Of a stretch of 64,000 bases of DNA, positions 17,324 to 34,953 are shown piece after piece. This DNA comes from Roseateles sp. (GTDB lineage Bacteria > Pseudomonadota > Gammaproteobacteria > Burkholderiales > Burkholderiaceae_C): NCBI GenBank assembly GCA_019234295.1, contig JAFALK010000009.1, positions 1 to 64,000 of the forward strand, given 5' to 3'. Position numbers and translations under genes: made by a program. The notes beneath the pieces are model-generated. The model saw nothing but the letters and a program-made list of their open reading frames with translations, ran no database searches and was not told where the DNA came from. Positions within the stretch are counted from its first letter, which is position 1, and each line of letters opens with the position of its first letter.

Positions 17324-17343
17324 TTTCAAATGAGGAATGACTG

Positions 17344-18525: not shown

Positions 18526-20274
18526 ATGGCCCAAACCGAGAAACATGGTCCTGTCCATCCTTGTCAGCTTCCGGCTGGGGATGCACCCGCATTGGCGCCA
18601 CAGGCCTGGATTTCTCGCCCTGCGCAAGCCCTGGCGGGCAGCGGCACCGGCGCACTGGCGGGGCTGACGTTCGCGGCCAAAGACAATATCGACGTGGCAG
18701 GGCTGCCTACCACAGCCGCCTGCCCAGCATTCAGCTATCGGCCGGCAGAACACGCTTTCGTGGTGCGCAGGCTGCTGGATGCGGGTTCATCGCTGCTGGG
18801 TAAAACCAACCTGGACCAATTTGCCTGCGGGCTCAATGGCACGCGGTCGCCGTACGGTGTCGTTCCCAACGCATTTGACCCGCGTTACGTGTCGGGCGGG
18901 TCCAGTTCCGGCTCGGCCTATGCGGTGGCGACCGGCCAAGTCGACTTTGCTCTGGGAACCGATACCGCCGGCTCCGGTCGCGTGCCGGCCGGGCTGAACA
19001 ATATCGTGGGATTCAAACCCAGCAAGGGGCTGATCAGCACCCGGGGCGTGGTGCCCGCGGCGCAGAGTGTCGATTGCGTGTCCATCTTCGCACGCACCGT
19101 CGCTACAGCCGCCCGTGTCTTGCACGCGGCCATGGGCTACGACGCTTTGGACCCCTATTCCCGGCGCCTGGAACTAGCCTCCAGCCCTTTGCCGGCACGA
19201 TTTCGCTTCGGCGTGCCATCCGAGTTGCAGTTCTTTGGTGACAAGGCCGCGGAAGATGCGTTTCAACGGGCGATAACGCAATTGCACGAGCTGGGGGGCG
19301 CGCCCATCATCATCGATTACGCCCCACTCGCCGGTGCCGCAGCCTTGTTGTACGAGAGCGCGTTGGTGGCCGAGCGCTACGCCGCAGTGCGCGACTTCTT
19401 TGACGCGCACGAGGACCAGGTGCTGGAGCCTGTGCGGGGCATCATGGCCAGCGGGCGTGGCCAAAGCGCTGCCGACGTGTTCCAGGCACAAACGCGCTTG
19501 CGCATCTTTGCGCAGCAGGCCGCAGGCATCTGGAACGATATTGACGTCTTGCTAGTGCCCACGGCACCCACGCACTACACGATTGCCCAAATGCAGGCCG
19601 ACCCATTGGCGCTGAATCGCAATCTGGGCGTGTACACGAATTTCGTCAACCTGCTGGACTATGCCGCCATCTCGGTGCCCAGCTCGATGCGCGCTGACGG
19701 CCTTCCCTTCGGCATCACTTTGATTGGCCCCTGCGGTAGTGATTGGCAACTGGCTGAACTGAGCCAGCGTTTCCACCACGCCAGCGGATTGGCGCAAGGC
19801 GCTCTCGGTAAGCCTTTGCCAGCCCCCCAAGCCATTGCGGGCTTGCAGTCAGACCCTATGACCGCAATCAAAGTAGCCGTGGTCGGCGCCCACCTGTCCG
19901 GCATGCCCTTGAACCTGCAGTTGACTGAGCGCCACGCCGTTCTGGTCGCCCGCACCGAAACGGCGCCGGATTACAAGCTGTTTGCATTGCCTGGCACGTT
20001 TCCGCCCAAGCCTGGTCTGCTGCGGGTGGCACCTGGACTGGGTACGCGAATCGCAGTCGAAGTCTGGGAGATGCCGCTGGTGCATTTTGGCTCCTTCGTC
20101 GCCTTGATCCCGGCGCCGCTGGGCGTGGGCACACTGATGTTGAGCGATGGCAGCACCGTCCAGGGTTTCATTTGCGAACCACAGGCGCTTGAAGGTGCGC
20201 AAGACATCAGCGCCTGGGGCGGCTGGCGAGCCTACATGGCGTCGCGAAGCCTGGATGGCACACCTACACCATGA
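18526..20274 (+). CDS. atzF: allophanate hydrolase
   Basis: Allophanate hydrolase splits allophanate into two ammonia and two CO2, the last step of urea/guanidine carboxylase pathways. The 582-residue protein has the amidase-signature domain with the Lys-Ser-Ser triad visible in LTFAAKDNID, SGGSSSGSA and LGTDTAGSGRVPAG, then a C-terminal allophanate-hydrolase domain of about 130 residues (from roughly residue 445: MTAIKVAVVGAHLSGMPLN, later EVWEMP). The length is typical. The ATG at 18526 follows a GGAAGA stretch; a TTG/ATG extension at 18418 adds 36 non-homologous residues. The stop overlaps the permease start (ATGA). Confidence 0.92.
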   Translation: MAQTEKHGPVHPCQLPAGDAPALAPQAWISRPAQALAGSGTGALAGLTFAAKDNIDVAGLPTTAACPAFSYRPAEHAFVVRRLLDAGSSLLGKTNLDQFACGLNGTRSPYGVVPNAFDPRYVSGGSSSGSAYAVATGQVDFALGTDTAGSGRVPAGLNNIVGFKPSKGLISTRGVVPAAQSVDCVSIFARTVATAARVLHAAMGYDALDPYSRRLELASSPLPARFRFGVPSELQFFGDKAAEDAFQRAITQLHELGGAPIIIDYAPLAGAAALLYESALVAERYAAVRDFFDAHEDQVLEPVRGIMASGRGQSAADVFQAQTRLRIFAQQAAGIWNDIDVLLVPTAPTHYTIAQMQADPLALNRNLGVYTNFVNLLDYAAISVPSSMRADGLPFGITLIGPCGSDWQLAELSQRFHHASGLAQGALGKPLPAPQAIAGLQSDPMTAIKVAVVGAHLSGMPLNLQLTERHAVLVARTETAPDYKLFALPGTFPPKPGLLRVAPGLGTRIAVEVWEMPLVHFGSFVALIPAPLGVGTLMLSDGSTVQGFICEPQALEGAQDISAWGGWRAYMASRSLDGTPTP

Positions 20275-21233
20275 TGAAGTTTGTGATTCCACTTGGCCGC
20301 CGGGCCGCCCCATCCCGACGCGCCTTGCTCACGCTGTGCTCCTTCCTGATTCCCATCCTGATCTGGTGCCTGTTCAGCTATGTGCCATTCATCTGGCATC
20401 CCAAAGTCATGGTGAGCGATCCCGGCGGCGTGGACTATTTCAACCCCGGCACGCTGGTGGACAAGGACGAGTTTGAAGACCAGGCGGGACAGATGAAGGC
20501 ACAAGGCCTGGCCGTGCCTCGCGGCCACCCGGCCAACCCGGTGTACCTGCCTGCTCCGCACGTTGTCGCCAAGGCCTTTGTCGTCGCTTTCAGCACTGCG
20601 CCGCAGACCCGCGACGGCGTATGGCTGCACGAAAGCCTGTGGCACAGCATTCAAATCATCTTCTGGGGTTTTGTGCTGTCGTCTCTGGTGGGTGTGCCGC
20701 TGGGCGTGCTCACCGGCACCTATGTCACGTTGGCACGCCTGAGCGAACCGTTCATCGAATTCTTCCGCTACCTGCCGGCTCCGGCCTTCGGCGCGCTGGC
20801 AGTAGCCGTGCTGGGCATTTACGACGGGCCAAAGATTGCCATCATCGTCATTGGAACCTTCTTCCAGCAAGTACTGGTGGTGGCCAACACCACGCGCAAG
20901 CTCGACCCGACCATCGTGGAGGCAGCGCGCACCCTGGGCACGCGTGGACGCTTAATCACCAAGGTGGTCGTGCCGGCCATCTTGCCCGATCTGTACCGCG
21001 ACCAGCGCATCCTGCTGGGCTGGGCGTGGACCTACCTCATCGTCGCCGAATTGATCGGCACCAGCTCCGGCATCACCTGGTACATCACCCAGCAGGCGCG
21101 CTACCAGCACTTCGAGAACGTGTATGCCGCCATCATCATCATCGGCATGATCGGGTTTGGCAGCGATCTGGGCTTCGAGCGCCTGGGGCGCAAGCTCTTT
21201 CCTTGGCATGTTGCACAAGGAGACAAACGATGA
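20271..21233 (+). CDS. ABC transporter permease (guanidine/urea module)
   Basis: This 320-residue inner-membrane protein is the permease of the NitT/TauT-type importer. It has an N-terminal helix ([22 protein letters not shown]), a periplasmic insert, and the BPD_transp_1 core with helices and the coupling-loop segment [27 protein letters not shown]. Four-base overlaps join it to the hydrolase gene before it and to the ATPase gene after it, so the three are co-translated. The periplasmic insert of about 80 residues between the first and second helices is typical of taurine/nitrate-type permeases. Confidence 0.9.
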
Positions 21234-22159
21234 CTGCTGCAAGCCCGAAGCTCGACGAAGGCGCACTGGCCTATCTCGAGCAGACCGACGCGGTGCGACA
21301 GCGATTCAAGCGCATCAAAGAGCGCGACGTCGTGCTCGAAGTCCGCAAGCTGCACAAGACTTTCGAGACACCACAAGGCGCGACCGAGGCACTGCGCGAC
21401 ATCAACTTCAAGGTGCATCGGCGCGAATTCATTTGCGTGATCGGCCCTTCCGGATGCGGCAAGTCCACGCTGATCCGCATCCTGGCGGGACTGGAGCGGC
21501 ATTCCAGCGGCGAAGTGCTGCTTGACGACAAGCCAGTGACAGGTCCTGGGCGTGACCTGGGAATGGTGTTTCAGGGCTACTCGCTGTTTCCGTGGCTCAC
21601 GGTTAAGCGCAACATCATGTTCGGTCCCCAGATGAGCGGCCAGAGCACTGGCACGGCCGAAAGTCTGGCGCGAACCTGGATCGATCTGGTCGGCCTAACG
21701 CAATTTGCAGACGCCTACCCGCACCAATTGTCCGGCGGCATGCGACAACGTGTGGCCATTGCCCGCGCACTGGTCAATCAGCCCCGCATCCTGTTGATGG
21801 ACGAGCCCTTTGGCGCGCTCGATGCACAAACCCGAAGCCGCATGCAAAGTCATCTCCTGGACATCTGGAAGAACATCGACCTCACCATCCTTTTCATCAC
21901 CCACGATCTGGACGAGGCCATCTATCTGGCTGACCGCATTCTGGTGTTGAAGCCCCATCCCGGCGAGGTACAGGAACTCATCGAAGTGCCGGTTCCGCGT
22001 CCGCGCGCGCCGGCGCAATTTGGCAGCCCTGAGTTTCGTGCGGTGAAGGCGCGTCTGGAGGCCTTGATACATCCCCCGCATGAATTGGACTCCGCCGAAG
22101 ACACGGTGGCCTTCGCAAACATGATCCGCTTCACCGACGTCGCGGACGATGTGGAGTAA
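21230..22159 (+). CDS. ABC transporter ATP-binding protein (guanidine/urea module)
   Basis: This 309-residue ATPase drives the importer. It contains Walker [10 protein letters not shown], the Q-loop [14 protein letters not shown], signature LSGGMRQR, Walker [13 protein letters not shown] and the switch histidine in [10 protein letters not shown], the pattern of the NrtD/SsuB/TauB group. It has an additional N-terminal stretch of about 35 residues before the first strand. Start and permease stop overlap (ATGA). A 35-base gap separates it from the regulator gene. Confidence 0.92.
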
Positions 22160-22194
22160 ACGATTCATGAAAACGGCAAACGTCTGGGCGGCAC

Positions 22195-22650
22195 ATGACA
22201 AGCGATGACAACACCACGGTCAGCCGCATCAGCATCTCTTTGCCGCCGGCGTTGCTGGAAGAGTTGGACCACATGGTGGCCAGCCAGGGCTATGGCAGCC
22301 GCTCGCAAGCCATTGGCGACATGGTCAATTACCAGTTGGCGGAACACAAGCGCAAGCTCGGCAACGACATCATGGCCGGCACCATCACCCTGCTGTACGA
22401 CCGCAGCACCCGAGGCCTGCAAAAGAAACTGGCGGACATCCAGTTCCAGCACATCGACGAGGTGATCAGTTCCCTGCACGTGCACCTGACGCACAACCAG
22501 ATGATGGAAGTGCTACTGATCCAGGGCCACGCCCACAAGTTGCAGGCCATTGCAAACGAAGTGACCACGCTGCGCGGCGTCTTGAGTGGCCGCCTGCAGC
22601 TGCTGGCCGCCATCATCCCCCAGATTCACGTGCCCGCCGAAGACCAGTGA
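22195..22650 (+). CDS. NikR-like ribbon-helix-helix regulator with altered metal site
   Basis: This 151-residue protein has an N-terminal ribbon-helix-helix domain (SRISISLPPALLEELD, residues 10-25, with the beta-strand DNA contacts R11, S13, S15; YGSRSQAIGDMV) and a C-terminal ACT-like NikR domain. Of the four E. coli nickel ligands (His76, His87, His89, Cys95), the two in LHVH are kept (His95, His97), but the His76 position is Phe84 and the Cys95 position is Met103. It therefore probably does not bind nickel in the classical square-planar way and may sense something else. It likely binds the inverted repeat at 17296-17323. It sits between transporter and enzyme genes of the operon. Confidence 0.82.
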   Translation: MTSDDNTTVSRISISLPPALLEELDHMVASQGYGSRSQAIGDMVNYQLAEHKRKLGNDIMAGTITLLYDRSTRGLQKKLADIQFQHIDEVISSLHVHLTHNQMMEVLLIQGHAHKLQAIANEVTTLRGVLSGRLQLLAAIIPQIHVPAEDQ

Positions 22651-22664
22651 GAGGACGCAGAGAG

Positions 22665-23447
22665 ATGACAGACCCTATCCAGCCCGCTGTTGACGCCACG
22701 CCTCATTGGCGCAACTTTGCGCCCGACCTGCCCGCCGACAAGGTGATGTTTTCCGAGCTGGTCCCTGGCGGCGCCCACTGGTCGTATACGCTTCCCCGTG
22801 GCACCACGCTGCGCATGGTGGCGCTGGAAGATGGTGCCAATCTGAGTCTCGTGCTGTATTCGGCTGCAGAAAAGCTGGAACGCTACAACATGCCCGATTC
22901 GCTCAAGGCCCAGCACACGGCCCACTACACGCGCGGCCATGTGCTGATGAGCGACATGGGGCGTGCGCTGGCTTCCATCACCGGCGACACCGTGGGCTGG
23001 CACGACCCGCTGGGGCTGCTGCTGGACGATAGCCGGATGGCCAAGAAGTTCGCAGCGCTGCCCTACCAGGCGGCCCGCAACGGCATGCACCGCAGCGGCC
23101 GCGACGGACTGCTGACCGAAATCGCCAAGTACGGGCTGACGAGACGGGACCTGATTGCCCCCGTGAATTTCTTCTCCAAGGTCACGGTGAACGAGGACGG
23201 CCAGTTTGAATTTGTTGCCGGGCACTGCAAGGCGGGCGACCACGTGGACCTGCGCCTGGACATGAACGTCATCGTCGCCTTCTCCACGGCGCCTCACCCG
23301 CTGGACCCCAGCACCACCTACAACGCGAAGAAAGTGGGCCTGGCGCTGTGGCGATCCGGCCCGGCCAAGGACGACGACTACTGCCGCAGCTTTCGTTCCG
23401 AAAATGCCCGCGCGCTGCACAACAGCGACGTCTTGCACATGCTCTGA
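22665..23447 (+). CDS. urea/guanidine-carboxylase-associated protein 1 (DUF1989), carboxyguanidine deiminase subunit
   Basis: This 260-residue soluble protein belongs to the DUF1989 family annotated as urea amidolyase-associated protein 1. In characterised systems the two DUF1989 partners form the CgdAB carboxyguanidine deiminase, which converts carboxyguanidine to allophanate and ammonia. Visible family parts are ELVPGGAHWSYTLPRGTTLRMVALEDGANLSLVLY and RDLIAPVNFFSKVTVNEDGQFEF. It lacks the cysteine cluster found in its partner. The ATG at 22665 follows a purine-rich AGAGAG; the in-frame GTG at 22647 overlaps the regulator stop. Which of cgdA or cgdB it is I cannot decide. Confidence 0.85.
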   Translation: MTDPIQPAVDATPHWRNFAPDLPADKVMFSELVPGGAHWSYTLPRGTTLRMVALEDGANLSLVLYSAAEKLERYNMPDSLKAQHTAHYTRGHVLMSDMGRALASITGDTVGWHDPLGLLLDDSRMAKKFAALPYQAARNGMHRSGRDGLLTEIAKYGLTRRDLIAPVNFFSKVTVNEDGQFEFVAGHCKAGDHVDLRLDMNVIVAFSTAPHPLDPSTTYNAKKVGLALWRSGPAKDDDYCRSFRSENARALHNSDVLHML

Positions 23448-23456
23448 GCCCACACC

Positions 23457-24110
23457 ATGACTGCCAAACGAATCCAAGAGAGCACGCTGGCACCGCAGCA
23501 CAGCGTCCTGAATCACACGGTCCCTGCGGGCGAGCCGTATCTTCTGGGCATTGCCAAGGGCCAGACCGTTCGCATCGTGGACCTGGAAGGAAATCAGGCC
23601 GTGGATGTGATTTTCTACAACCGCCACGATCCTTCAGAGCACTACAGCGCCACGCAAACCTTGATGGCCCAAGGTGGCATTTATCTGACCACGGACTCGG
23701 TGCTTTACAGCGATGAGGGCAACCCCATGCTCACCATCGTCGCCGATACCTGCGGGCGTCACGACACGCTCGGCGGTGCCTGCGCCGCCGAAAGCAATAT
23801 GGTGCGCTACGCGCTGCAAAAAAAATTCATGCACAGTTGTCGCGACAACTTCCTGATCACGCTGCAACGGGCAGGTCTGGACCTGGCCAAACGCGACCTG
23901 GTGCCCAATGTGAACTTCTTCATGAACGTGCCGGTGACAGCGTCGGGCCAGCTGACCTTTGCCGACGGCGTATCCGCGCCTGGCAAATACGTCGAACTGC
24001 GCGCCTTGATGGATGTCTGGATGCTGGTCTCCAATTGCCCGCAACTGAACAACCCATGCAACGCCTACAACCCGACGCCCATTCAATTGCTGGTGTGGAA
24101 TCCCGCTTGA
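23457..24110 (+). CDS. urea/guanidine-carboxylase-associated protein 2 (DUF1989), carboxyguanidine deiminase subunit
   Basis: This 217-residue protein is the DUF1989 partner of the preceding gene, nine bases downstream. It shows VPAGEPYLLGIAKGQTVRIVDLEGNQAVDVIFYN and conserved cysteines/histidines in DTCGRHDTLGGAC, HSCRDNF and SNCPQLNNPCNAYNPTPIQL, a likely zinc site. It should act with the DUF1989 protein at 22665 as carboxyguanidine deiminase between the carboxylase and allophanate hydrolase. Its presence argues for guanidine rather than plain urea as the carboxylase substrate. An 81-base gap follows, containing a two-hairpin RNA element. Confidence 0.87.
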   Translation: MTAKRIQESTLAPQHSVLNHTVPAGEPYLLGIAKGQTVRIVDLEGNQAVDVIFYNRHDPSEHYSATQTLMAQGGIYLTTDSVLYSDEGNPMLTIVADTCGRHDTLGGACAAESNMVRYALQKKFMHSCRDNFLITLQRAGLDLAKRDLVPNVNFFMNVPVTASGQLTFADGVSAPGKYVELRALMDVWMLVSNCPQLNNPCNAYNPTPIQLLVWNPA

Positions 24111-24133
24111 GTGGCAAGACCATCAACCTCGTT

Positions 24134-24177
24134 GCCGGACGACCGGCCGCGCTTTTCCTAATGATGTGGGACGACCC
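24134..24177 (+). promoter_or_regulatory. guanidine-II (mini-ykkC) riboswitch candidate
   Basis: Two hairpins with the diagnostic ACGA tetraloop lie in the 81-base gap before the carboxylase. Hairpin one is GCCGG-ACGA-CCGGC (24134-24147), hairpin two GGG-ACGA-CCC (24168-24177), separated by 20 bases and ending 14 bases before the ATG. Both loops are closed by GG/CC, as in the family. Guanidine-II riboswitches expose the ribosome site when guanidine binds both loops. The second stem is short, so a database search is still needed. Confidence 0.75.
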
Positions 24178-24191
24178 CGACTCGGTTTGCC

Positions 24192-27100
24192 ATGTTCAAG
24201 AAAGTCCTGATCGCCAACCGTGGCGCCATTGCTTGCAGAATCCAGCGCTCGCTCGGAAAGCTGGGAGTCAAGTCTGTGGCCGTGTACTCCGAGGCCGATG
24301 CCGCCGCGCGCCACGTACTGGAGGCCGACGAAGCCTATCTTCTTGGTCCGGCGCCGGCGTCGGAGAGCTACCTCGACGCGCAAAAGATACTGGCCATCGC
24401 ACAGCGTAGCGGGGCCCAGGCCATCCACCCCGGCTATGGGTTTCTTTCCGAGAACCCCGATTTCGCGCAAGCCTGCGAGGCGGCAGGGATTGCCTTCATC
24501 GGGCCTACCGCCGCGCAGATGCGCGCCTTTGGACTGAAGCACACCGCGCGCGAACTGGCCCAGCGCAATGGTGTACCCATGCTGCCGGGCTCGGGCCTGC
24601 TGGCCGACGCACAGCACGCTCAACGCGAGGCTGAGCGCATTGGCTATCCGGTCATGCTCAAGAGCACTGCCGGCGGCGGCGGTATCGGCATGCGCCTGGT
24701 ATGGGACAAGGCTGCACTGGCCGACGCGTTCGCCGCCGTCGATCGGCTGGCCCGTGCCAATTTCAAGGAACCCGGCATCTACTTGGAAAAGTACGTGGAG
24801 CACGCGTGTCACATTGAAGTGCAACTCTTCGGCGATGGCCAAGGCGAGGTGATCGCGCTGGGTGAGCGGGATTGCTCCGTGCAGCGGCGCAACCAAAAGG
24901 TGATTGAGGAAACGCCGGCGCCTGGCCTGTCCAACAAGCAGCGCAAGCAACTGCTAGACATCGCCGTCAAGCTGGGCCGCGCCGTGAATTACCGCTCCGC
25001 CGGCACGGTGGAATTCGTGTACGACGTCAGCAGCGGGAGCTTCTATTTTCTGGAGGTCAATACGCGGCTGCAAGTGGAGCACGGCGTGACCGAGGAAGTG
25101 ACAGGCGTTGACTTGGTTGAGTGGATGGTCCGCCTGGCCGCGCACGAGTTGCCGGACCTGCGCAGTTTGAAGGTGCGCTCCAAAGGCGCGGCCATGCAGG
25201 TGCGCGTTTATGCCGAGGATCCGAACAAGAACTTCCAGCCCTCGGCCGGCCTGTTGACATCGGTGCGCTATCCGAGCGGAATTCGTGTGGATGGGTGGGT
25301 GGAAAGCGGTACGGTGGTGCCACCACACTATGACCCCATGCTGGCCAAGCTGATTGCGTTTGGACGCAATCGAGAGGCCGCTCGCAAGAAGCTGCTGGTC
25401 GCTATCCATGACAGTGAGATCGCCGGCATCGAGACCAACCGCGCCTATCTGGCCCAAGTGCTGGCCTACCCGGACTTCATCGCGGGTAAGCAGACTACTC
25501 ATATGCTCGCGGGGCTGCACTACCAGGCCAACACCATTGACGTGCTGGAGCCGGGCTTGCAGTCCACCGTGCAGGACTGGCCGGGCCGCCAGGGCTACTG
25601 GAACGTGGGACTGCCGCCTTGCGGCCCGATGGATGCCCTCTCCCATCGACTTGCCAACCGCCTGGTGGGCAACCATGAGTCCGCCGCTGCCTTGGAGCTG
25701 ACTGCCGCAGGCCCCACTTTGAAATTCAATTGCGACGCGGTGATCGCAATGACCGGTGCGGCCATGCACGCCACACTGGACGGTCAGGCGCTGGCGCCCT
25801 GGAAAGCGCATCCGGTCAAGGCCAACAGCGTGCTCAAGCTGGGAGCCATCGTCGGGGCCGGGTTGCGCGCCTATGTGGCGGTGCAAGGCGGCCTTCAGGT
25901 GCCGGAATACCTGGGCTCGAGATCCACGTTCACACTGGGACAGTTTGGCGGCCATGGTGGACGCGCCCTGCGCACAGGCGACGTGCTGCCCGTTGTACCG
26001 GCTCACGCCGAGAGCCTTGCCAGTGCCGCCAGACGCCGGGCGCTGTCGCCCCGCTTGCGACCCCCAATCACTCACGATTGGGAGATTGGAGTGCTGTACG
26101 GCCCGCACGGCGCGCCGGAATTTTTCACAGACGACGACATCAGCACATTTTTTGCCACTGGCTGGGAGGTGCACTACAACTCGTCGCGCACCGGTGTCCG
26201 CCTGATCGGGCCCAAGCCTCAGTGGGCGCGCCGCGACGGCGGCGAAGCAGGCTTGCACCCCTCCAACATTCACGACAATGCCTACGCGATCGGTGCGGTG
26301 GACTTTACGGGCGACATGCCCGTCATCCTCGGGCCGGATGGCCCCAGCCTCGGCGGCTTTGTCTGCCCGGCCACCATTGTCCAGGCGGAACTGTGGAAGC
26401 TTGGCCAGTTGAAGCCGGGCGACCGCGTTCGCTTCAAGCGGCTCACGCAAAGCCAGGCCAACGCCATGCAGCTTTCGCAGGATGGCGCAATCGCCGCCCT
26501 GGACAAGCCCGCTTTCGTCACGCTGCCCTTGCGGCACAGCGCCTTGAGCACACCGGTGGTGCGCCACCTGAAGAAGGAGGGCGAAAAGCCGGATTTCGTG
26601 ATCCGCCAGTCGGGCGACGCCAATCTGCTGATCGAGCTGGGCCCGCTGGTGCTGGACCTGGAACTGCGGCTGGGCGTGCAAGCGCTGATGGATGCGCTGC
26701 AAGCCGACATCGAGGCCGGGAGGACCCAGGGCGTGCTGGACCTGACCCCAGGCATACGCTCGCTGCAAGTGCATTTCGATCCGCGCCGAATCACCCAGAA
26801 CCAGCTGATCGACAAGATCGTTGCGCTGGAGGAGGCCTTGCCTGACCTGGACGATATGGAGGTCGCATCACGCATCGTTCACCTGCCCCTGTCCTGGGAT
26901 GATTCGGCCACGAAACTGGCGATTGAGAAGTACATGCAGTCAGTGCGCGCCGACGCGCCCTGGTGTCCCAGCAACATCGAGTTCATACGGCGCATCAACG
27001 GACTGGAGACATTGGCCGACGTCAACAAGATCGTGTTCGAAGCGAGCTATTTGGTCATGGGGCTGGGTGATGTCTACCTCGGTGCACCCGTGGCCACGCC

Positions 27101-27821
27101 GCTGGACCCGCGCCACCGGCTGGTGACCACCAAGTACAACCCGGCTCGCACCTGGACCCCGGAGAATGCCGTGGGTATCGGCGGCGCCTACATGTGCATC
27201 TATGGCATGGAAGGCCCCGGCGGATACCAGTTTGTCGGGCGCACCGTGCAGATGTGGAACCGCCACAAGAAGACGAAGGATTTCAGCAAGCCTTGGCTGT
27301 TGCGATTTTTCGATCAGGTTCGTTTCTATCCGGTCAGCGAAGAAAAGCTGGTTGAGCTCAGACGAGACCTGCTGACGGGCGAGTTTCGACTGCAGATCGA
27401 GCCCACCCGGTTTCGCCTTCGTGACTATCGCGCGTTCCTGGCGAGCAATGCCAGCGCAATCGCCGCATTCAAGAGCAAGCAGCAAGGTGCCTTCGAAGCG
27501 GAACGCGAACGCTGGAGCGCTGCCGGCCAGGAAATGGCGGTGATCGACAGCGACCTCTTCGCAGCCGAGCCCGACAGCAAGCTGGAATTGCCAGCGCACG
27601 CGCAGCCCGTGGTGACACCAGTGTCAGGCAGTGTTTGGAAGCTCGACGTCCAGCTGGGTGAGCAGGTCACAAAGGGCCAGACGCTGATCACCGTGGAGTC
27701 GATGAAGATGGAGTTTGCACTGACGGCCCCATGCGCTGGAACGGTCACGCATATCTTTTGCAACGAAGGCAGCGGTGTGTCGTCCGGCCAGGACTTGCTA
27801 CTCGTCTCTGCGCAGCCTTGA
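24192..27821 (+). CDS. biotin-dependent guanidine/urea carboxylase
   Basis: This 1209-residue enzyme carboxylates guanidine (or urea) with bicarbonate and ATP. It runs biotin carboxylase (residues 1-450; [20 protein letters not shown]-grasp loop [23 protein letters not shown]), carboxyltransferase KipA-like part (about 458-770; [24 protein letters not shown]) and KipI-like part (about 805-1020), then a biotin-carrier domain with VESMKMEF and biotinyl Lys1172. Residue Asp704 in GAVDFTGD occupies a place where, as I recall, yeast urea carboxylase has Asn; Asp there marks guanidine carboxylases. The flanking DUF1989 genes and guanidine riboswitches support guanidine. The allophanate hydrolase is a separate gene, as usual in bacteria. 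Confidence 0.9.
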
Positions 27822-27959
27822 GAGCGAAGGGGCGCGCCCAATGCGCAGCTTTCGCATCAGTTTCGTGCAACGCACCAAGACACGCCTGCATATGGTGCTT
27901 ATTCTTTCCATGTAGCCCGAAAAGGCGGCTGTGGCCCGGCATAAACGCTTCAATTTTCC

Positions 27960-27974
27960 TGGCATAGGAATTGC
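27960..27974 (+). promoter_or_regulatory. sigma-54 promoter of the riboswitch/TonB receptor unit
   Basis: TGGCATAGGAATTGC followed by T gives the -24 GG and -12 GC exactly ten bases apart, as in TGGCAC-N5-TTGCW. Transcription would start near 27986, about 30 bases before the guanidine-I aptamer. Upstream, NtrC-like half-sites GCACCA (27872-27877) and TGGTGC (27893-27898) exist, but their spacing is about one helical turn longer than normal. Confidence 0.65.
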
Positions 27975-28013
27975 TGATCACATGGCGGGAAGCGACTGGA
28001 ATTTTCGCCAACC

Positions 28014-28136
28014 GAAGGGGCGCTAGGGTTCCGATCGAGCACAGCTGGCATGTGCTCGGTGCTGGTCCAAGAGCGCTCGGCCTCAAGTGCGCTCGACCGC
28101 ATTCAGGTTCCACGGCGGGACAAAAGCCCGGGAGAT
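28014..28136 (+). promoter_or_regulatory. guanidine-I (ykkC) riboswitch
   Basis: The three conserved blocks of the ykkC aptamer appear in order: GCTAGGGTTCCG (28022-28033), GCTGGTCCAAGAGCG (28061-28075) and ACGGCGGGACAAAAGCCCGGGAGA-type sequence (28112-28135). Between the first two is a perfect 8-bp hairpin, CGAGCACA(28036-28043)/TGTGCTCG(28051-28058). The only clear departure from the core is CCAAGAG for CCGAGAG. The aptamer ends about 58 bases before the receptor ATG. GAGGT (28150-28154) can pair with ACCTC just before the start codon, a possible translation switch. Confidence 0.9.
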
Positions 28137-28194
28137 TACTTCGTGTTTCGAGGTGGTTTCCCAAATTTTTGTCACCCTTGCCTTGGACCTCCAT

Positions 28195-30603
28195 ATGCTG
28201 AACTCAATCTCGATGCGCCGGGTCAATCCTGCTAAGTCTTGCGTACCGACCTCCCCGCCGTTCGCATTGCGCAAGCTGACGGCACTATCACTGTGTCTTG
28301 TCGCCAGCGTGGCCTGGTCTGCCGAAGCCGAAGTCGCCGACGGCGGTGCCGACGCGACGCAAGAGCAGGACAGGCTGGAGGCGGTGGTCATTACGTCTCA
28401 AAAGCGCATTCAAGCGATTCAGACAGTACCCGTGAGCGTCTCGGTGCTGAGCGGCAAGGAGCTGGCGGCCCAGCACATCGACAACTACGACGATCTGAGT
28501 CGCGCTGTGCCGGGTGTGTCGTTCAATTCAGTGGGTGCCAACGAAGGCCTGACCAATGTCACCATCCGCGGCGTCAGTTCTACATCGGGCTCGGCCACCG
28601 TGGGGCTGTACCTGGACGACGTGTCCATCACCACCAAGAACTTTTACGACTTCGCGGCGCAACCCAAGTTCTTCGACCTGCAAGGCATCGAGGTGTTGCG
28701 CGGACCGCAAGGTTCACTGTGGGGGGCAAGCTCTGAGGGCGGAACGATACGCTTCATCCCTGTGCAGCCTGACATGACCGCGCAAAGCAGCCAGGTGAGC
28801 ATCGAGACTTCAACGACCCAGCACGGCGGCATCAACTATGGTGCCAGCGCCCTCTTCAACACGCCGGTGAAGGATGATGTCTTCGCGCTGCGCGGAAGCA
28901 TTTATTCCAACCACGAGAGCGGCTACATCGACCACTTCGATCAGAAGGGCAACCTGGTCAAAAAGGGTGTCAATGACGAAAAGGTGACCAGCTTTCATCT
29001 GTTGGGCAAGATCACGCCTAGTGACGAACTCACCATCAAGCCCGCCGTGTTCTACCAACTGAGCAACACGGGCGACAACTCAGCCTTCTATCCCTCAATG
29101 GGCCTGCACCAGCAGAACAAGCAGGTCAGGGAAAATGGCCGTGACGAGATGGCCTTAGGCAGCTTGTCTATCCAGCAGAACTTCAAGGCCTTTGACTTCA
29201 CTTCGGTCACCGGTGTCTTCAAACGCCAATTCGACCGACAGGAAGACGGTACTTACTACAACAGCACCGTCTTCGCGCAGGCCTTTCTGGACCCCCTTTA
29301 CCCGAACTACCAAGCGCAAAACGACGCCATCATTGGCAACCTGGCCTCACCGGTCAAGATGAAGACCAATTACCGTCAGGTCAGCCAGGAGTTCAGGCTG
29401 TCCTCGCCGGAAGGGGGCAAGGGCCCTGTCCAATGGGTGGCCGGTGTGTACTACGCCGAGCAGTCGATTCACAACACCGACTTCCAGCAAATACCCGGCA
29501 TCAACACAGCATTCCAAAGCATCTATGGCATGCCGATGGAGCAGTCGCTGGTGCAAGGCGCCTATGGCGCGCCGGGGCTGCAGTTATTCCCGAACGACAT
29601 TGACGAGTCGGACGACAGAACCTATCGCGAAAAGCAAACCGCCATCTTCGGGCAGGTCGACGTCGATCTGCGACCCGATTGGCACATGGGGCTTGGGGCC
29701 CGTCTGGTTCACGCGAACGAAACCTTCGTCTCCACCGAAATTGGTTTCTACCAGATCGGCAACATCAGCCCTTACAACCAATCGGCCAGCTTCAGCACGG
29801 TAACGCCGAAGGCGACCCTGAGCCACGACCTGGATGAAAACCACAAGATGTACTTGTCCGCCGGAGAAGGTACACGCCTGGGCGGCCCCACGGGTCCCAT
29901 CGTGTACGGGCCTACGTCGGTTTGCGCGAGCGACTTTGCCGCCATCGGCCAAACCTCGCAGCCGACCAAGTTCAATTCCGACAGCTTGTGGACCTACGAG
30001 GCCGGTTCAAAGAACGTGCTGGCCGATGGGCAGGTGACTTTGAATGCCGCCGTCTTTCACACCGACTGGCAGAACATCCAGCAGCAAATCTATCTGCCGA
30101 CCTGCGGCTACTACTTCACCTCGAACGTGGGCAATGCAGCCATTGACGGCGGCGAGCTGGAGCTGGCTGCACTGCTGACCCGCAACTTGGCCTTGAACAT
30201 GACCCTCAGCCGGGAGAATGCCAGGGTCACCAGTTCAAACAACCCAGCGACTGTGGCGGTAGGTGCCCATTTGATCGATGTTCCGGATCTGACCGCGACA
30301 CTCGCCGCCACCTACGGTTTTTCGTTCGGCGACGGCACAAGAGTCAGTGCGCGCGCGGAATATGCCTTTACCGGGCATTCGTATGGCAGCTATCAAGTCT
30401 CCAATTCCAACTACTACAACCCTGCCTACGGCGTGCTCAATCTGAATCTGATGTTTACGCTGAAGGACTTTGAAATTACGGCATTCGCAAAGAATGCACT
30501 GAACAACCAAACCATCATCCAGCGGCCGGAAATCAACACGGTCGTGGAAGGCTATACCGTGCGGCCCAGAACCATCGGCATGAAGGTGACCGCGCATTTT
30601 TGA
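28195..30603 (+). CDS. TonB-dependent outer-membrane receptor under guanidine riboswitch
   Basis: This 802-residue receptor has a signal peptide (RKLTALSLCLVASVAWSAEA), a TonB-box-like LEAVVITSQKR, a plug with VTIRGVSSTSGSATVGLYLDD and IEVLRGPQGSLWGASSEGGTIRF, and a barrel ending in MKVTAHF with terminal phenylalanine. It belongs to the subgroup with VPVSVSVLSG, not the subclass of the two receptors at 0.4-5.4 kb. The ATG at 28195 was chosen because longer frames start inside the riboswitch; ATG 28213 is the alternative and also leaves the signal peptide intact. Control by a guanidine-I riboswitch and sigma-54 promoter implies uptake of guanidine or a guanidino compound across the outer membrane. 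Confidence 0.88.
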   Translation: MLNSISMRRVNPAKSCVPTSPPFALRKLTALSLCLVASVAWSAEAEVADGGADATQEQDRLEAVVITSQKRIQAIQTVPVSVSVLSGKELAAQHIDNYDDLSRAVPGVSFNSVGANEGLTNVTIRGVSSTSGSATVGLYLDDVSITTKNFYDFAAQPKFFDLQGIEVLRGPQGSLWGASSEGGTIRFIPVQPDMTAQSSQVSIETSTTQHGGINYGASALFNTPVKDDVFALRGSIYSNHESGYIDHFDQKGNLVKKGVNDEKVTSFHLLGKITPSDELTIKPAVFYQLSNTGDNSAFYPSMGLHQQNKQVRENGRDEMALGSLSIQQNFKAFDFTSVTGVFKRQFDRQEDGTYYNSTVFAQAFLDPLYPNYQAQNDAIIGNLASPVKMKTNYRQVSQEFRLSSPEGGKGPVQWVAGVYYAEQSIHNTDFQQIPGINTAFQSIYGMPMEQSLVQGAYGAPGLQLFPNDIDESDDRTYREKQTAIFGQVDVDLRPDWHMGLGARLVHANETFVSTEIGFYQIGNISPYNQSASFSTVTPKATLSHDLDENHKMYLSAGEGTRLGGPTGPIVYGPTSVCASDFAAIGQTSQPTKFNSDSLWTYEAGSKNVLADGQVTLNAAVFHTDWQNIQQQIYLPTCGYYFTSNVGNAAIDGGELELAALLTRNLALNMTLSRENARVTSSNNPATVAVGAHLIDVPDLTATLAATYGFSFGDGTRVSARAEYAFTGHSYGSYQVSNSNYYNPAYGVLNLNLMFTLKDFEITAFAKNALNNQTIIQRPEINTVVEGYTVRPRTIGMKVTAHF

Positions 30604-30821
30604 CACCGGCAGCACCGAAGCCTCGGGCAAGCGCCTCAAAGCCCTTGAGGCCGAGATTTATCGCATTGTTGTGGGCATCCGCATCCATCGGCATCAGCCA
30701 GGCATTGCAGCATCGGCTAGCTGCCGCGGAAACCGAGCGGTCAACATAGCGGACCCGGTTGGAGAACATGGCCAGCGCCTGGCATTGGCTCTTCTCGTCC
30801 ACGTAGATGACCTGAGCCTTG
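30604..30821 (-). pseudogene. transposase remnant
   Basis: On the minus strand, one frame reads AQVIYVDEKSQCQAL near the right end, resembling the VDEKSQ-x-QAL catalytic segment of IS630-type DDE transposases. Further left another stretch (DADAHNNAINLGLKGFEALARG) resembles the tail of TnpB-like proteins. Neither is an intact gene. The segment is best described as mobile-element debris between the receptor and the diguanylate cyclase; family assignment is uncertain. Confidence 0.4.
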
Positions 30822-32327
30822 CTACAACGCACCTGAATGTTCGACCACTTTAGTGGCGGCATCCAGGTGCAAGTACTCGACGCGGTTGCGCCCGAGTGCC
30901 TTCGCTTGGTATAGCGCGCGGTCGGCTTGCTGTACCAGTGCCATCGGATCAGTGCTTGCCGACGCGCCTGTGTCAAGGCGCACACTGGAGGCGCCGATGC
31001 TGACACTGACATGGCCCAGCGGGCTGTCAAAATTCTCGATCTGCAAAACCTCGACGGCGTGACGTAGTCGCTCGGCAAGCAGTTCGATGCGGGTCGCGTC
31101 GACGTCCCAAACCAGGGCCATGAATTCCTCGCCGCCCCAACGTGCAAGCACATCGTTGCCACGTGTCAGTTGGGCCTTTAGCGCCTGAGCTACCTGACGC
31201 AAACAATCGTCGCCGCATGTATGACCGTAGCGGTCGTTCAGCCGCTTGAAATGATCGATGTCGATCATCAGCACCCCGACCGAGCGCGCTGAATCCGAAT
31301 CGCGGCGCCACAACTCGGGCAGCGCATGGTCCAGGTAGTGACGGTTATATAGACCAGTCAATGCGTCAGTCAAGGCCATGATCTCCAACTGACTGCCGCG
31401 GTCAATGTGGCTGATCTGCACTATGGCACTGCGTAGCACGTAGCCCAAAGCCGCCAGCAACACGGCGGATGCGCCCAGCACGTAATCGAGGCGAATCAAC
31501 ATCAGTGCCACGACGAGAAGGCCACCTGCCAGTGCCATCGGCGCCAAGGTTCGCACGACGCCGATCATGCGGGCGCTGGGGACGCGCTGCGATTGCGAGC
31601 TCGTGCTGCGCTCGCTCAAAATCCACAGCAGAACGAACGCCACCGTCACAATGGAAGCGTACTCAGGCCCGAGTTCCGGTTTGCCGGCGAAAAAGTGATT
31701 GTTGATGAAAGCCATCGCCAAGTAGAGCCAAGTGTGCAGCGTCAGTGCACCAAAAAGCGCTCGCTCATCAGCCCTTGCTGCCGCCCACCAACGGATCAGC
31801 GAGCCGAAGGCAATGACCAGGTTCTGGATATCAATCAGCCGGACCATTTCGGCCACGCCAGCATCGTCAGGTAGTCCGCGCGCAGTCAGCAAACCCCAAG
31901 TCACAAGAAAATAGCAGCAACCGAGCGCGAGCGCCAATACCGCATCGATACAGCGCGCCAGCACGTGGCCCTTGTATTGCCAATCGCCAGAGAGCAGGAA
32001 TGCGATCGGCACCGCAGACAGGTGAAAGGCCAGCATCGTGCCGCGCTGCATCTCCTCAATCAGACCCAACAGCCATTCGTTGCGGAAGTTGGCGGCGGCT
32101 CCAATGCTCCAGATGAGCATAGCCAGCGCGCTCAACAACCAGCCTTGTCGGGCGAATCCTTGTTCGCGCCGACTGCGCCGCCACAACGCCCATGCTGCGC
32201 AGACCGGCGCCGCCACCATAGCAATCAAGGCAACGGGCTCACGCCACGCTGGCACGAATGCCAGCAGCATCGCCTGAATCAAGAGGAAAAGAATCGGGCC
32301 CGCTCGTGGCAAGTGGTCATTGATCAC
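30822..32327 (-). CDS. membrane diguanylate cyclase (GGDEF domain)
   Basis: This protein of about 501 residues makes the second messenger cyclic di-GMP. The N-terminal 290 residues hold about nine hydrophobic helices (for example ILFLLIQAMLLAFVPAW, GCCYFLVTWGLLTA, FVLLWILSE), acting as a membrane sensor module. The GGDEF domain follows: MALTDALTGLYNRHYLDHALPEL, VGVLMIDIDHFKRLNDRYGH, and the active-site variant GGEEF in RWGGEEFM. No RxxD inhibitory site is seen directly before it. The GTG at 32327 is the likeliest start; no in-frame ATG exists close by, so the N-terminus is uncertain. No local regulatory partner is evident. Confidence 0.82.
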   Translation of the reverse strand: MINDHLPRAGPILFLLIQAMLLAFVPAWREPVALIAMVAAPVCAAWALWRRSRREQGFARQGWLLSALAMLIWSIGAAANFRNEWLLGLIEEMQRGTMLAFHLSAVPIAFLLSGDWQYKGHVLARCIDAVLALALGCCYFLVTWGLLTARGLPDDAGVAEMVRLIDIQNLVIAFGSLIRWWAAARADERALFGALTLHTWLYLAMAFINNHFFAGKPELGPEYASIVTVAFVLLWILSERSTSSQSQRVPSARMIGVVRTLAPMALAGGLLVVALMLIRLDYVLGASAVLLAALGYVLRSAIVQISHIDRGSQLEIMALTDALTGLYNRHYLDHALPELWRRDSDSARSVGVLMIDIDHFKRLNDRYGHTCGDDCLRQVAQALKAQLTRGNDVLARWGGEEFMALVWDVDATRIELLAERLRHAVEVLQIENFDSPLGHVSVSIGASSVRLDTGASASTDPMALVQQADRALYQAKALGRNRVEYLHLDAATKVVEHSGAL

Positions 32328-32570
32328 GTCGATCTTCGTTCTGCATGTAGCCCGTTGGCCATATGAAGCATATCGCGTGTTCGCACTGTCGAATCTATGG
32401 ATGCCGCGACGGCATTTGCTGGCATTGCAGCGTTGCAGCGTTGCAGTGAAGGGTGCGTCTGCGATGCGCTCCCGGATGCCCACAGCCCATCGGCGAAGGC
32501 TGATCGCGCCCTTGGAAACCGTGCTGTGCCGCCGCCAAGTTTCGAAATCACGCGCTGCGCACGGCATCAT
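32328..32570. other. non-coding region with short tandem repeat
   Basis: No gene is seen. It contains three near-identical 8-base units TTGCAGCG at 32425-32448 (last unit TTGCAGTG). The region precedes the diguanylate cyclase and would contain its promoter. Confidence 0.4.
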
Positions 32571-32718
32571 TCGCGCAGCGAGGTTCGCAACGAGTTGTGC
32601 CGATCATCCTTAGCTGGACCGGGGCCCCAGCGACACTGCAACGCTACTGGTTAATGCGACGCTACGAGAGGAATATGAGGCTCTTCACGCGGGTGTCAAC
32701 GCCGCACGCCTTGCCCTG

Positions 32719-33042
32719 GTGACAGCGCTAAGGACCACTGCCAAGCCCAAGCTGCTGGTCATCGACGAACTCGGCTACCTGCCGTTCGAGGCCAACGCGG
32801 CGCACCTGTTCTTCCAGCTCGTGAGCCGACGCTATGAGCGCGGCGCGACGCTGCTGACCAGCAACCGTTCGGTCGCGGAATGGGGTGGCGTCTTCGGAGA
32901 CGCAGTGGTCGCCACCGCCATCCTGGACCGACTGCTGCATCACAGCCACGTCATCACCATCCGCGGCGACAGCTACCGGCTCAGGGCCAAACGCAAGTCC
33001 GGTCTGGTCAAGGACCACACCGCGCTCGCCACTGCAGCTTGA
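32719..33042 (+). pseudogene. IS21-family istB remnant (C-terminal half)
   Basis: IstB is the ATPase helper of IS21 transposition, normally about 250 residues. Only the last 107 residues remain: AKPKLLVIDELGYLPFEANAAHLFFQLVSRRYERG (Walker B DE), SNRSVAEWGGVFGD and VATAILDRLLHHSHVITIRGDSYRL. The N-terminal Walker A part and the istA transposase are absent; the frame runs upstream into unrelated sequence (REEYEALHAGVNAARLAL). It is a truncated element, unable to transpose. Confidence 0.85.
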
Positions 33043-33052
33043 TCAACCCAGG

Positions 33053-33100
33053 GGGTCAATTCTGAATGTCGTCAGGGTCAGTTCTCGATGTCGCCTGACA
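33053..33100. repeat. IS21-type terminal repeats
   Basis: Two related 19-base units, GGGTCAATTCTGAATGTCG (33053-33071) and GGGTCAGTTCTCGATGTCG (33075-33093), lie 22 bases apart just after istB, and the element ends in CTGACA at 33100. Multiple end repeats and a TGTCA-type terminus are typical of IS21. No matching left end is in view, so the element is truncated. Confidence 0.75.
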
Positions 33101-33418
33101 GCCGACCGAGTTGGGGCGCCTGTTGGGACTTCGTCCAGTGAATCCAAAGTACGTTAGCTACGACGGCGCAGATTTTCCCGTGCGCCCGGATCTCTACAGG
33201 CCCGAGGGCAAGCGCAGGCGGCCAAGACGCAAGATCGGCTAGCAGGCCTTGCAGAGAACCCGGCTTCTCGGCCCAACGGTCACCCGGTATCGGGCCATTG
33301 ATCATTGGAACTATGGATCCTCGTCGGAGGGCACGGAGCGCAACGGTCATTTCGAGCCGAAACAGATTTCCGCTGGGCACAGGATGGGCACGAAATGGGC
33401 ACAGCGTGGGCACAAAGC
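33101..33418. other. intergenic region without recognised gene
   Basis: No convincing gene. The stretch contains three short GGGCAC-type repeats around 33374-33413. It lies between the IS21 end and the terminator/attachment-site region of the tRNA-linked element. Confidence 0.35.
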
Positions 33419-33446
33419 AAAAACGCCAACCTCACGGTTGGCGTTT
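33419..33446 (-). terminator. intrinsic terminator, probably the former tRNA-fMet terminator
   Basis: AAACGCCAACC(33421-33431)/GGTTGGCGTTT(33436-33446) form a perfect 11-bp stem with loop TCAC. Read leftward the stem is followed by TTTTT. It stands 38 bases left of the tRNA-like direct repeat at 33484, as a terminator of the tRNA would before an element split them. Confidence 0.75.
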
Positions 33447-33483
33447 GATGCGTCGTAAGTCGCTGGTACGCTTACGAAATTCT

Positions 33484-33497
33484 GTGGTTGCGGGGGC
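33484..33497. repeat. putative attL: duplicated 3' end of tRNA-fMet
   Basis: GTGGTTGCGGGGGC is identical and in the same orientation to 62875-62888, the 3' end of the initiator tRNA gene; with two mismatches the match extends to 21 bases (19 identical). This is the arrangement left by integration into a tRNA 3' end. Confidence 0.65.
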
Positions 33498-33654
33498 GCG
33501 ATTTTGCATTTGGAGACGGCAGGACGCTCCATAGCCTTGCATTGGTGCCCCGATGGTCGGGGCTGCGTAGCAGATGCTGTCCATGGTCGCTGGCCGGCAA
33601 GAGCAACGGCGCGGTGCTTTCCGCTCCTCACAGCCACTCAACGCCTGGCACAGG

Positions 33655-34953
33655 CTATCGCCTCAGATCGATGATCAGGGGCCCGTCCAAGGCCTGCATG
33701 ATGGCAGAGGCTGGCTGGCCATGGGCGAGCAGCTTGGCCATGCCGTTCATGGCTGCCGTGATGTGGCGGAAGTATTTCTTGTAGCTCGGGCACAGGTAGT
33801 TCAGGCCGGGCTCGCCATCGGGTGTGGTCGCGAAGCGATTCTTCGGGCACTCCCCATGGCAGGCAAACCGGTAGTCGCAGCGGCGGCAGTACGCTGGCAA
33901 CGCGGTTTCCTTGGCGGCGCCAAAGGCCTGCTGTCGAGGCGACTGCATAAGCTCTACCAAAGAGTCGCGGCGGATGTCGCCCAAGTGGTAGTCCGGATAC
34001 ATGAAGTGGTCGCAGGAATAGACGCTGCCGTTGTGCTCGACGATGGCAGCCTTGCCGCAGCGCGGCGCGAACAGGCACACGGTTGCCGGCAACTGGCACC
34101 ACGCGGCCAGTGCCCATTCGAAGTTCATCACATGGATCGACCCGACGTCGTGGCGCACCCACTCATCGAACACCGCGATCAGGAAGTCACCGTAGGCCTC
34201 GGGCTCGACAGTGTGCTGCGTCACCGCCGCGGGCCCATCCGTGGGCGAGCTCGGACGCGACAGAAACGGCGGCGTACCAAAGGTCTGGCCGAGCGCGATC
34301 GCCGCAGGGCCGGGCAGCCGCTCGACGACGGGGTTGAACTGGATGAAGCGCACGCCCTCGTCCTTGAGGAAGCGGTAGACCTCCAGCGGATGCCGAGCCA
34401 CGTCGCGCGCCACCGTCACCAACACGTTCAACGCAACGCCGTGCTGTTGCAGCAGGCGAAGGCCGCGCATCACGGCATCGAAGGACGAGCGGCCCTGCTT
34501 GTCCAGCCGGTACAGATCGTGCACCTCGCGTGGCCCATCCAGGCTCAAGCCCACCGTGAAACCTTCGCGCGCCAGAAACCGCGCCCAGGTCTCGTCGATG
34601 AGCGTGCCATTGGTCTGCAGCGTATTGCGGATGCGTTTGCTCGCAGCCCAGGGCCGCTGCGCTGCCACCACGCGTTCGAAGAATTCCACGCCCAGCAAGG
34701 TGGGCTCCCCTCCTTGCCAGGTGAATTCGACCTCGGGCGTCGTCTGCGCCTCGACATAGGAGCGCACATAGGCCTGTAGCACCTCGTCGGACATCCTGAA
34801 GCGATGCCGCGGCTCGAACTGATGCTCCTTCTCCAGGTAGAAGCAGTAACTGCAGTCGAGATTGCAGATCGGCCCCATGGGTTTGGCCATGAGATGGATG
34901 CCCTGAACCGGCGCTGAAGCGCCAGCGGCGTCGGGCAAGGCGGTCTGGTTCAT
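33655..34953 (-). CDS. anaerobic sulfatase-maturating radical SAM enzyme
   Basis: This 432-residue enzyme oxidises a Ser or Cys of its partner sulfatase to formylglycine. It has the radical-SAM cluster motif CNLDCSYC (Cys30, Cys34, Cys37), EFTWQGGEPTLLG, and a SPASM-type C-terminal cysteine region (APRCGKA, YSCDHF, CRRCDYRFACHGECPKN, NYLCPSY) for two auxiliary iron-sulfur clusters. Its start overlaps the stop of the sulfatase gene by four bases (34950-34953), so the pair is co-translated. This fits AtsB/anSME-type partners. Confidence 0.93.
   Translation of the reverse strand: MNQTALPDAAGASAPVQGIHLMAKPMGPICNLDCSYCFYLEKEHQFEPRHRFRMSDEVLQAYVRSYVEAQTTPEVEFTWQGGEPTLLGVEFFERVVAAQRPWAASKRIRNTLQTNGTLIDETWARFLAREGFTVGLSLDGPREVHDLYRLDKQGRSSFDAVMRGLRLLQQHGVALNVLVTVARDVARHPLEVYRFLKDEGVRFIQFNPVVERLPGPAAIALGQTFGTPPFLSRPSSPTDGPAAVTQHTVEPEAYGDFLIAVFDEWVRHDVGSIHVMNFEWALAAWCQLPATVCLFAPRCGKAAIVEHNGSVYSCDHFMYPDYHLGDIRRDSLVELMQSPRQQAFGAAKETALPAYCRRCDYRFACHGECPKNRFATTPDGEPGLNYLCPSYKKYFRHITAAMNGMAKLLAHGQPASAIMQALDGPLIIDLRR

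Follow-up and report, generated by a model that had tools for sequence, protein, structure and literature searches.

Vreelandella boliviensis carries a guanidine-carboxylase operon with a guanidine-I riboswitch at its head and a guanidine-II riboswitch between cgdB and gca (PMC12508155), and analogous operons are present in Raoultella, Erwinia and Klebsiella (PMC12186494). We analyzed a 64,000-nucleotide (nt) stretch of a draft Roseateles sp. genome (contig JAFALK010000009.1, positions 1 to 64,000; hereafter, the window), in which a guanidine-I riboswitch stands directly before the gene for a TonB-dependent outer-membrane receptor (TBDR) and next to a guanidine-carboxylase operon. Like the published operons, the window encodes an ATP-binding cassette (ABC) importer, a deiminase pair, a carboxylase and an allophanate hydrolase, and a guanidine-II-like motif lies ahead of its carboxylase gene, after the gene for the second deiminase subunit. 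Unlike them, it has its guanidine-I riboswitch before a TBDR gene rather than before importer genes, with none found at the operon head, and it includes a gene for a NikR-like regulator. The words TonB and porin gave no hit in the main text of PMC12508155 or PMC12186494. Within the open-licence full-text literature, to the extent of the text available, we found nothing that connects a TBDR with guanidine uptake or with a guanidine riboswitch; TonB appeared in related papers in connection with siderophore, heme or cobalamin receptors, other iron genes, or in lists and references. The earlier note on this DNA, made from the sequence alone, had called the arrangement a new branch of guanidine-I control, and the outcome of these searches agrees with that: the riboswitch class and the receptor fold are already known, and we did not find the pairing or its role in the pathway described.

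Two other kinds of system invite comparison. FhuA with FhuBCD and BtuB with BtuCDF are TonB-dependent receptors with cognate ABC importers. The receptor studied here resembles them in its predicted plugged, 22-strand barrel and in the genes for a substrate-binding protein (SBP), a permease and an ATPase that follow its homologues at two loci (L040 and L045), and differs from them in having no close solved relative and in being linked to nitrogen assimilation, not to iron or B12. In that a riboswitch fronts a TBDR gene, the locus also resembles the cobalamin riboswitches before TonB-dependent B12 receptors (PMC9723704, PMC10949472). The cobalamin switch acts via negative feedback (PMC10949472), whereas guanidine-I would be expected, by analogy with its published relatives, to turn the receptor on. 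Published work describes the riboswitches, exporters, inner-membrane importer and enzymes of bacterial guanidine use; what we propose here is its outer-membrane step.

The riboswitch, the receptor gene and the carboxylase

A search with the RF00442 covariance model, the check that the earlier note had proposed, gave a match at 28012-28136 on the plus strand that spans the complete model (1-107 of 107) and exceeds the gathering cutoff (74.8 versus 63 bits; E 1.8e-11 over the 64-kb window). The end of the aptamer is as the note had placed it, and the start lies 2 nt upstream of the 28014 given there; the three ykkC blocks that it quoted are all present. No other Rfam family matched this site at E <= 1 in a search of 14000-34000, and the match is the single one to RF00442 in the host's draft assembly (4.47 Mb in 97 contigs, 86.7% complete). 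The 3' block of the aptamer, GGGAGAT, was invariant in 8/8 TBDR-linked aptamers that we aligned. Because the guanidine-I riboswitch of the analogous published operon binds guanidine and not methylguanidine (PMC12508155), the ligand sensed by the window's RNA is most likely guanidine.

The aptamer runs into an expression platform that the earlier note had not described, a terminator-like hairpin at 28130-28162 (plus strand) with a T-rich tail (AAATTTTTGT) at 28163-28172. The hairpin opens with GGGAGAT, the final seven bases of the aptamer, so that in the window the conserved 3' block is tied into an alternative platform structure; most relatives share this arrangement with weak z scores. The segment 28131-28175 folds at -16.9 kcal/mol (z -4.7; 0/200 shuffles equally good), and a terminator scan placed a 14-pair terminator-like site at the hairpin. 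Since shuffles of the region average 0.8 such sites, support for the hairpin comes mainly from its overlap with the aptamer and from counterparts in relatives, 7/7 of which, when folded, were predicted to form a hairpin with the same arm (z -0.5 to -3.8). Terminator-based ON switching is the published mode of guanidine-I riboswitches (PMC12186494; PMC12508155), and from that work we infer the same polarity here.

The ATG of the receptor gene starts 59 nt past the aptamer. The gene is complete (28195-30603, plus strand, 802 aa), and its product contains both Plug (5e-17) and TonB_dep_Rec_b-barrel (1.6e-29) Pfam domains and is predicted to fold as a plugged, 22-strand barrel (predicted local distance difference test 78.5, predicted template-modeling score 0.80). 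The note's central claim, that a guanidine-I riboswitch precedes a TBDR gene, is thus upheld. The nearest folds found with Foldseek include FyuA, Fiu, PiuA, FhuA, PqqU and OprC; all 50 hits shown are receptors of this kind, with at most 17% identity, and the best PDB sequence match is 4epa/FyuA at 60 bits. Neither the sequence nor the fold matches to the PDB gave a hint of substrate. The host has TonB genes (TonB_C matches, 3/5 above cutoff), and we propose that the receptor would transport its cargo with TonB-derived energy. The next gene called after the receptor encodes a GGDEF protein on the minus strand. Two more TBDR plug domains lie elsewhere in the window, at about 569-931 and 3086-3457.

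The receptor gene is preceded on the same strand by an operon at 17344-27821 with the Pfam and TIGR matches of a full guanidine-carboxylase operon, as the note had stated. Asp704 of its carboxylase aligns with Asn1330 of urea amidolyase 5i8i, a column that we take to be the substrate-determining one; at this presumed position the window's enzyme has the replacement of Asn by Asp that marks a guanidine carboxylase. Guanidine carboxylases have Asp and urea carboxylases Asn (review PMC12186494, which does not state the position). Asp occupies the column in 14/14 further sequences covering it (the L051 fragment ends short of the column) and in the carboxylases of 5/5 additional loci.

Recurrence of the receptor at guanidine loci

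A sample of 399 genomes of the order yielded the first relative of the window's receptor. On contig C41 of genome G255, a guanidine-I riboswitch (78.8 bits) is followed by a receptor 58% identical to that of the window and then by genes for an SBP (71%), a permease (73%) and an ATPase (77%). The carboxylase locus of G255 lies on a separate contig and includes permease, ATPase and NikR-like genes of its own; the one RF00442 match in this genome is on C41, and the carboxylase contig has none.

Scanning a genome collection with the window's receptor alone returned no relatives, and a scan with peptide patterns from an alignment of two receptors did find them. This second scan covered 84,980 species genomes, was blind to gene context, and yielded 24 loci. 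At 19 of these (L037-L055), the receptor shares 50-70% identity with that of the window (best segment; 49.7% in L049). The records of these 19 loci carry the names Burkholderiaceae, Burkholderiales, Oxalobacteraceae, Ferrovum, Rhodospirillales, Caulobacterales, Sphingomonadales, Novosphingobium and Gammaproteobacteria, and thus span alpha-, beta- and gammaproteobacteria. Many come from metagenome bins, so that names and contig membership are somewhat doubtful; isolates with the receptor are Novosphingobium nitrogenifigens DSM 19370 (L055) and other named Novosphingobium strains.

We found genes for UAAP proteins, the carboxylase or allophanate hydrolase near the receptor in 17 of the 19 loci; the other two, L040 and L041, have a guanidine-I riboswitch plus importer gene(s) instead of pathway enzymes. 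The riboswitch stands immediately before the receptor gene in seven (L037, L040, L041, L045, L049, L051 and L054); an eighth, L039, has it at the start of the operon. Co-occurrence of aptamer and receptor in relatives, on which the earlier note had let its proposal stand or fall, is therefore observed at these eight loci. L040, which we take to be the same contig as C41 of G255 (also L028), is a transport-only unit of riboswitch, TBDR, SBP, permease and ATPase; L045 has the same genes on one strand (the permease by Pfam), and L041 has riboswitch, TBDR and SBP gene on one strand before the contig ends. The SBP genes behind the receptor at these three loci are homologous to the window's NMT1-like SBP gene. 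At L049, the single-strand order is riboswitch, TBDR, NikR-like gene, UAAP1, UAAP2 and guanidine carboxylase. That close relatives of the receptor recur at guanidine loci of distant bacteria suggests that guanidine use includes uptake across the outer membrane.

This recurrence bears on the objection that a receptor lies behind the aptamer by chance in a TBDR-rich genome, the true target of the RNA having been the upstream operon or a gene since lost. The assembly does have 39 Plug-domain matches, three of them inside the window, and the search of 14000-34000 (E <= 1) gave no guanidine riboswitch at the head of the operon. Against coincidence, the receptor group is found at guanidine genes or RNA in 19/19 related loci, 7 of which have the aptamer immediately ahead of the receptor gene, and the spacing from aptamer to start is kept at 56-60 nt in the window, L037 (60 nt), L051 (56 nt) and L054 (58 nt; distances in these three to the first in-frame ATG or GTG). 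The recurrence contradicts this explanation, which we consider highly improbable, and a single recently moved cassette is disfavored by the differing gene orders and identities among the 19 loci.

No enzyme genes were found at the other five hits of the scan (L056-L060, 23-38% identical), although L057 (7.1 kb) and L059 (3.8 kb) are so short that such an absence says little there; nor were pathway enzyme genes found near the 35-38% identical receptors of G096, G000:C88 and G255:C9, which have generic ATPase matches only. Three guanidine loci are exceptions in having a distant receptor nearby: L041 (35% identical; other strand, roughly 0.7 kb from the guanidine-I riboswitch of this locus), L049 (27% identical) and L052 (other strand, after UAAP2). 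As a separate observation, G096 carries a ZMP/ZTP riboswitch (L025 1228-1353, minus strand; 59.1 bits, cutoff 39) approximately 150 nt beyond the 3' end of its 38% identical TBDR coding match, on the same strand.

In a tree of 26 receptors, the 17 rows from guanidine loci require 1 label change, versus 7.8 in shuffles (0/500 as low). Tree and residue comparison omit L052, L053 and L054 (fragments or frame-broken) and L028; L059 and the distant receptor L049:2875-6057 were kept in the tree as long branches and, with L060, left out of the residue comparison. At 48 positions, 16 or more of the 17 group members share a residue that at most 1 of 7 outgroup rows has; these include D470, E471 and D473 (D470-E471-x-D473), each in 17/17 versus 0/7. 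With residues located by strand order of the predicted model, 34 of 44 clade-specific barrel positions lie in or within 4 residues of extracellular loops, compared with 331 of 605 overall (Fisher p 0.001). This pattern suggests a shared, specific cargo and does not name it.

In two Novosphingobium loci, methyl-accepting chemotaxis genes lie between the allophanate hydrolase gene and the receptor gene (L043 5001-6884; L046 7050-8867), a hint of possible chemotaxis toward the same compound.

The proposed uptake route and its cargo

We think it probable that riboswitch and receptor form an inducible, high-affinity uptake branch for guanidine assimilation. In this mechanism, cytoplasmic guanidine would bind the aptamer, which would then retain its 3' strand (GGGAGAT); with guanidine absent, that strand would pair downstream as the terminator-like hairpin and the receptor gene would be off, and with guanidine present it would be on. 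The TBDR would carry its cargo across the outer membrane on TonB energy, the ABC importer (SBP, permease and ATPase) would move it into the cytoplasm, and guanidine carboxylase, the UAAP1/UAAP2 carboxyguanidine deiminase and allophanate hydrolase would lead from there to ammonia. Because the genes for SBP, permease and ATPase lie behind riboswitch and TBDR in L040 and L045, as an SBP gene does in L041, we infer that receptor and importer may constitute one route over both membranes.

Several observations weigh against this reading, the first of which is rarity. Guanidine-I riboswitches were found in 15/149 relatives and 51/399 genomes of the order, and the receptor group in only 2 of those 399. 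In the phylum sample, carboxylase matches occurred in 35/334 genomes (urea carboxylases not separated out) and the receptor group in 1/334, the window's own, so that the pathway runs without the receptor; the 2/334 genomes with any receptor match are this one and G096 (38% identical, outside the group). The class sample at E <= 1e-120 returned the window's own genome only (1/369), and plasmids gave no receptor match at E <= 1e-100. In these samples, scoring was confined to a few top first-look candidates from each genome, so that some receptors may be missed. The earlier note had asked for a survey of Burkholderiales: of 47 aptamer flanks (1.5 kb each side, L064 shortened; drawn from the relatives and from the order sample, the latter with 83 aptamer places), a receptor profile matched the window's and none of the other 46. 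The G255 aptamer, which lies outside these flanks and was examined via L024/L028, precedes a receptor. A profile of 24 aligned receptors likewise found no match at the carboxylase loci L120-L123 (four genomes outside the class), L124 (the second G255 locus) and L029 (the G103 locus), which indicates that the receptor is optional. It is thus a rare accessory, yet one that accompanies guanidine genes or RNA in the window and 19 loci.

The remaining contrary points concern linkage, regulation and permeability. RF00442 was absent at gathering from 11/19 receptor loci, namely L038, which is cut inside the carboxylase gene, and ten sphingomonad or Caulobacterales loci; upstream sequence is short in several of the ten, L052 starting inside the receptor so that its leader lies outside the sequence. 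In five of these ten riboswitch-less alphaproteobacterial loci, no sub-threshold guanidine riboswitch was found at E <= 1. L042 and L051 encode the receptor on one strand and the enzymes on the other. The platform z score reaches -3.8 in L054 only and is modest (-0.5 to -1.4) in the other 6/7 relatives, and the T-run after the hairpin is absent in L037 and L054; the mechanism in these relatives may therefore be translational or Rho-dependent. The branch joining the guanidine-locus receptors is weakly supported (66/42, 64% of bootstraps), and the extracellular enrichment of clade-specific positions is not significant when compared with other clade-conserved positions (91/139; p 0.10). Finally, the host has four Porin_4 porins, through which guanidinium should diffuse in; guanidinium concentrated by the receptor would leak from the periplasm.

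The earlier note had raised a larger guanidino compound or a metal complex as the true ligand. For the RNA, by analogy with a published aptamer, guanidine is the most likely ligand; for the receptor, sequence alone does not reveal the cargo. The objection from porins carries weight, and we therefore divide our expectations. Free guanidinium or a labile complex of it is the cargo that we favor, at somewhat below an even chance; a larger guanidine-yielding compound is possible; a metal or cofactor for the pathway is unlikely; and something else is a slimmer prospect still. In its fullest form, which we regard as possible rather than probable, the proposal is that a dedicated TBDR group imports guanidinium itself together with its own ABC importer, under guanidine-I control in betaproteobacteria and some others and under a nickel-blind, NikR-type regulator in alphaproteobacteria. 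Import of guanidinium would break the rule of thumb that such receptors take cargo excluded by porins, and would imply scavenging at very low levels; at approximately 60 Da, guanidinium would perhaps be the smallest organic cargo of any such receptor.

The alternative of a larger cargo supposes that the receptor imports a guanidine-yielding compound or complex barred from porins, and that the guanidine released from it both induces the riboswitch and feeds the pathway. TBDRs typically serve cargo too big or too scarce for porins, and the four host porins, which leave the note's argument about guanidinium passage standing, fit this idea, as do the well-conserved predicted extracellular parts of the receptor (125/235 clade-conserved positions) and the methylguanidine enzymes of one published guanidine operon (PMC12508155). 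Against this alternative, no enzyme for a larger guanidino compound was recognized among the 30 of 96 unlabelled neighboring open reading frames that were annotated, although one could lie elsewhere in the genome; those 30 encode chemoreceptors, LysR, MFS, GNAT, metallo-beta-lactamase-fold, radical SAM, aldehyde dehydrogenase, lipid-synthesis and other proteins, and four have no Pfam match. We regard a larger cargo as possible but doubtful; if correct, the receptor would lead to a natural source of guanidine not yet known.

The NikR-like regulator (22195-22650) raises a further alternative, that the receptor supplies nickel, zinc, biotin or a similar metal or cofactor to the pathway, and not guanidine. 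NikR-family genes occur in the window's operon and in L037, L042, L044, L047 and L049, the carboxylase has biotin-enzyme domains, the receptor fold resembles the copper receptor OprC (among many siderophore receptors), and the conserved D470-E471-x-D473 could bind metal. The nickel ligands of NikR are His76, His87, His89 and Cys95. When aligned with E. coli NikR, 6/6 NikR-like proteins had replaced the equivalents of His76 and Cys95, as had 4/4 further ones, or 10/10 in all (the window's protein and those of L037, L042, L044, L047, L049, L120, L121, L122 and L124); the window's protein has Phe at 76 and Met at 95 and so, in this numbering, does not carry the four ligands of a nickel-responsive NikR. 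These replacements weaken the nickel idea. In addition, we saw no gene in the operon for a nickel enzyme that breaks down guanidine, and in L040, L041 and L045 the receptor is followed by a homologue of the NMT1-like SBP gene, with no obvious metal importer. We therefore judge a metal or cofactor role improbable. Returning to guanidine uptake, the NikR-like gene adjoins UAAP and carboxylase genes also at loci without a detected guanidine riboswitch (L042, L044 and L047), where its product may, as a protein regulator, respond to guanidine or to a pathway intermediate. An open-licence full-text search found no literature joining NikR with guanidine carboxylase.

The neighboring operon and a guanidine-II-like motif

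All genes of the upstream operon lie on the plus strand. The first encodes an NMT1/SsuA-like ABC importer SBP (17344-18333; PF09084, PF13379), which resembles sulfonate, nitrate and taurine binders only weakly (TIGR03427 158 bits, below the cutoff of 334). It is followed by genes for allophanate hydrolase (18418-20274; TIGR02713 760 bits), the importer permease (20271-21233; PF00528), the importer ATPase (21233-22159, start approximate; PF00005) and the ribbon-helix-helix NikR-like regulator (PF08753 and PF01402; two of four nickel ligands replaced). The two DUF1989 proteins UAAP1 (22647-23447; TIGR03425 329.5 bits, cutoff 206) and UAAP2 (23457-24110; TIGR03424 334 bits, cutoff 284.7) are the putative carboxyguanidine deiminase subunits, and the last gene encodes the 1209-aa, biotin-dependent guanidine carboxylase (24192-27821; TIGR02712 1857 bits), annotated as a urea carboxylase. 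The published operons seen carry a riboswitch at the head, and at 17000-17344 of the window no guanidine riboswitch was found (E <= 1), a feature on which the earlier note was silent.

Also beyond that note is a guanidine-II (mini-ykkC)-like motif of tandem hairpins at 24131-24179 (plus strand), before the carboxylase gene. Guanidine-II riboswitches between deiminase and carboxylase genes have been described (PMC12508155). The motif scores 24.1 bits against RF01068, below the gathering cutoff of 32, and we do not class it as a member of that family; it may nevertheless act as a guanidine-II riboswitch, and the window may thus hold two guanidine riboswitch classes in adjacent units. It consists of two GGACGACC hairpins with ACGR loops and stems of 5 and 3 pairs, and such pairs occur by chance at a mean of 0.1 per 64 kb (60 Markov-1 sequences). 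Among 13 loci examined, ten have no such hairpin before the carboxylase gene, L029 has one ACGR hairpin plus a second with the loop ACGT, and two ACGR hairpins are found in the window and in L039, where the motif, at the same place, scores 36.5 bits and exceeds the RF01068 gathering cutoff.

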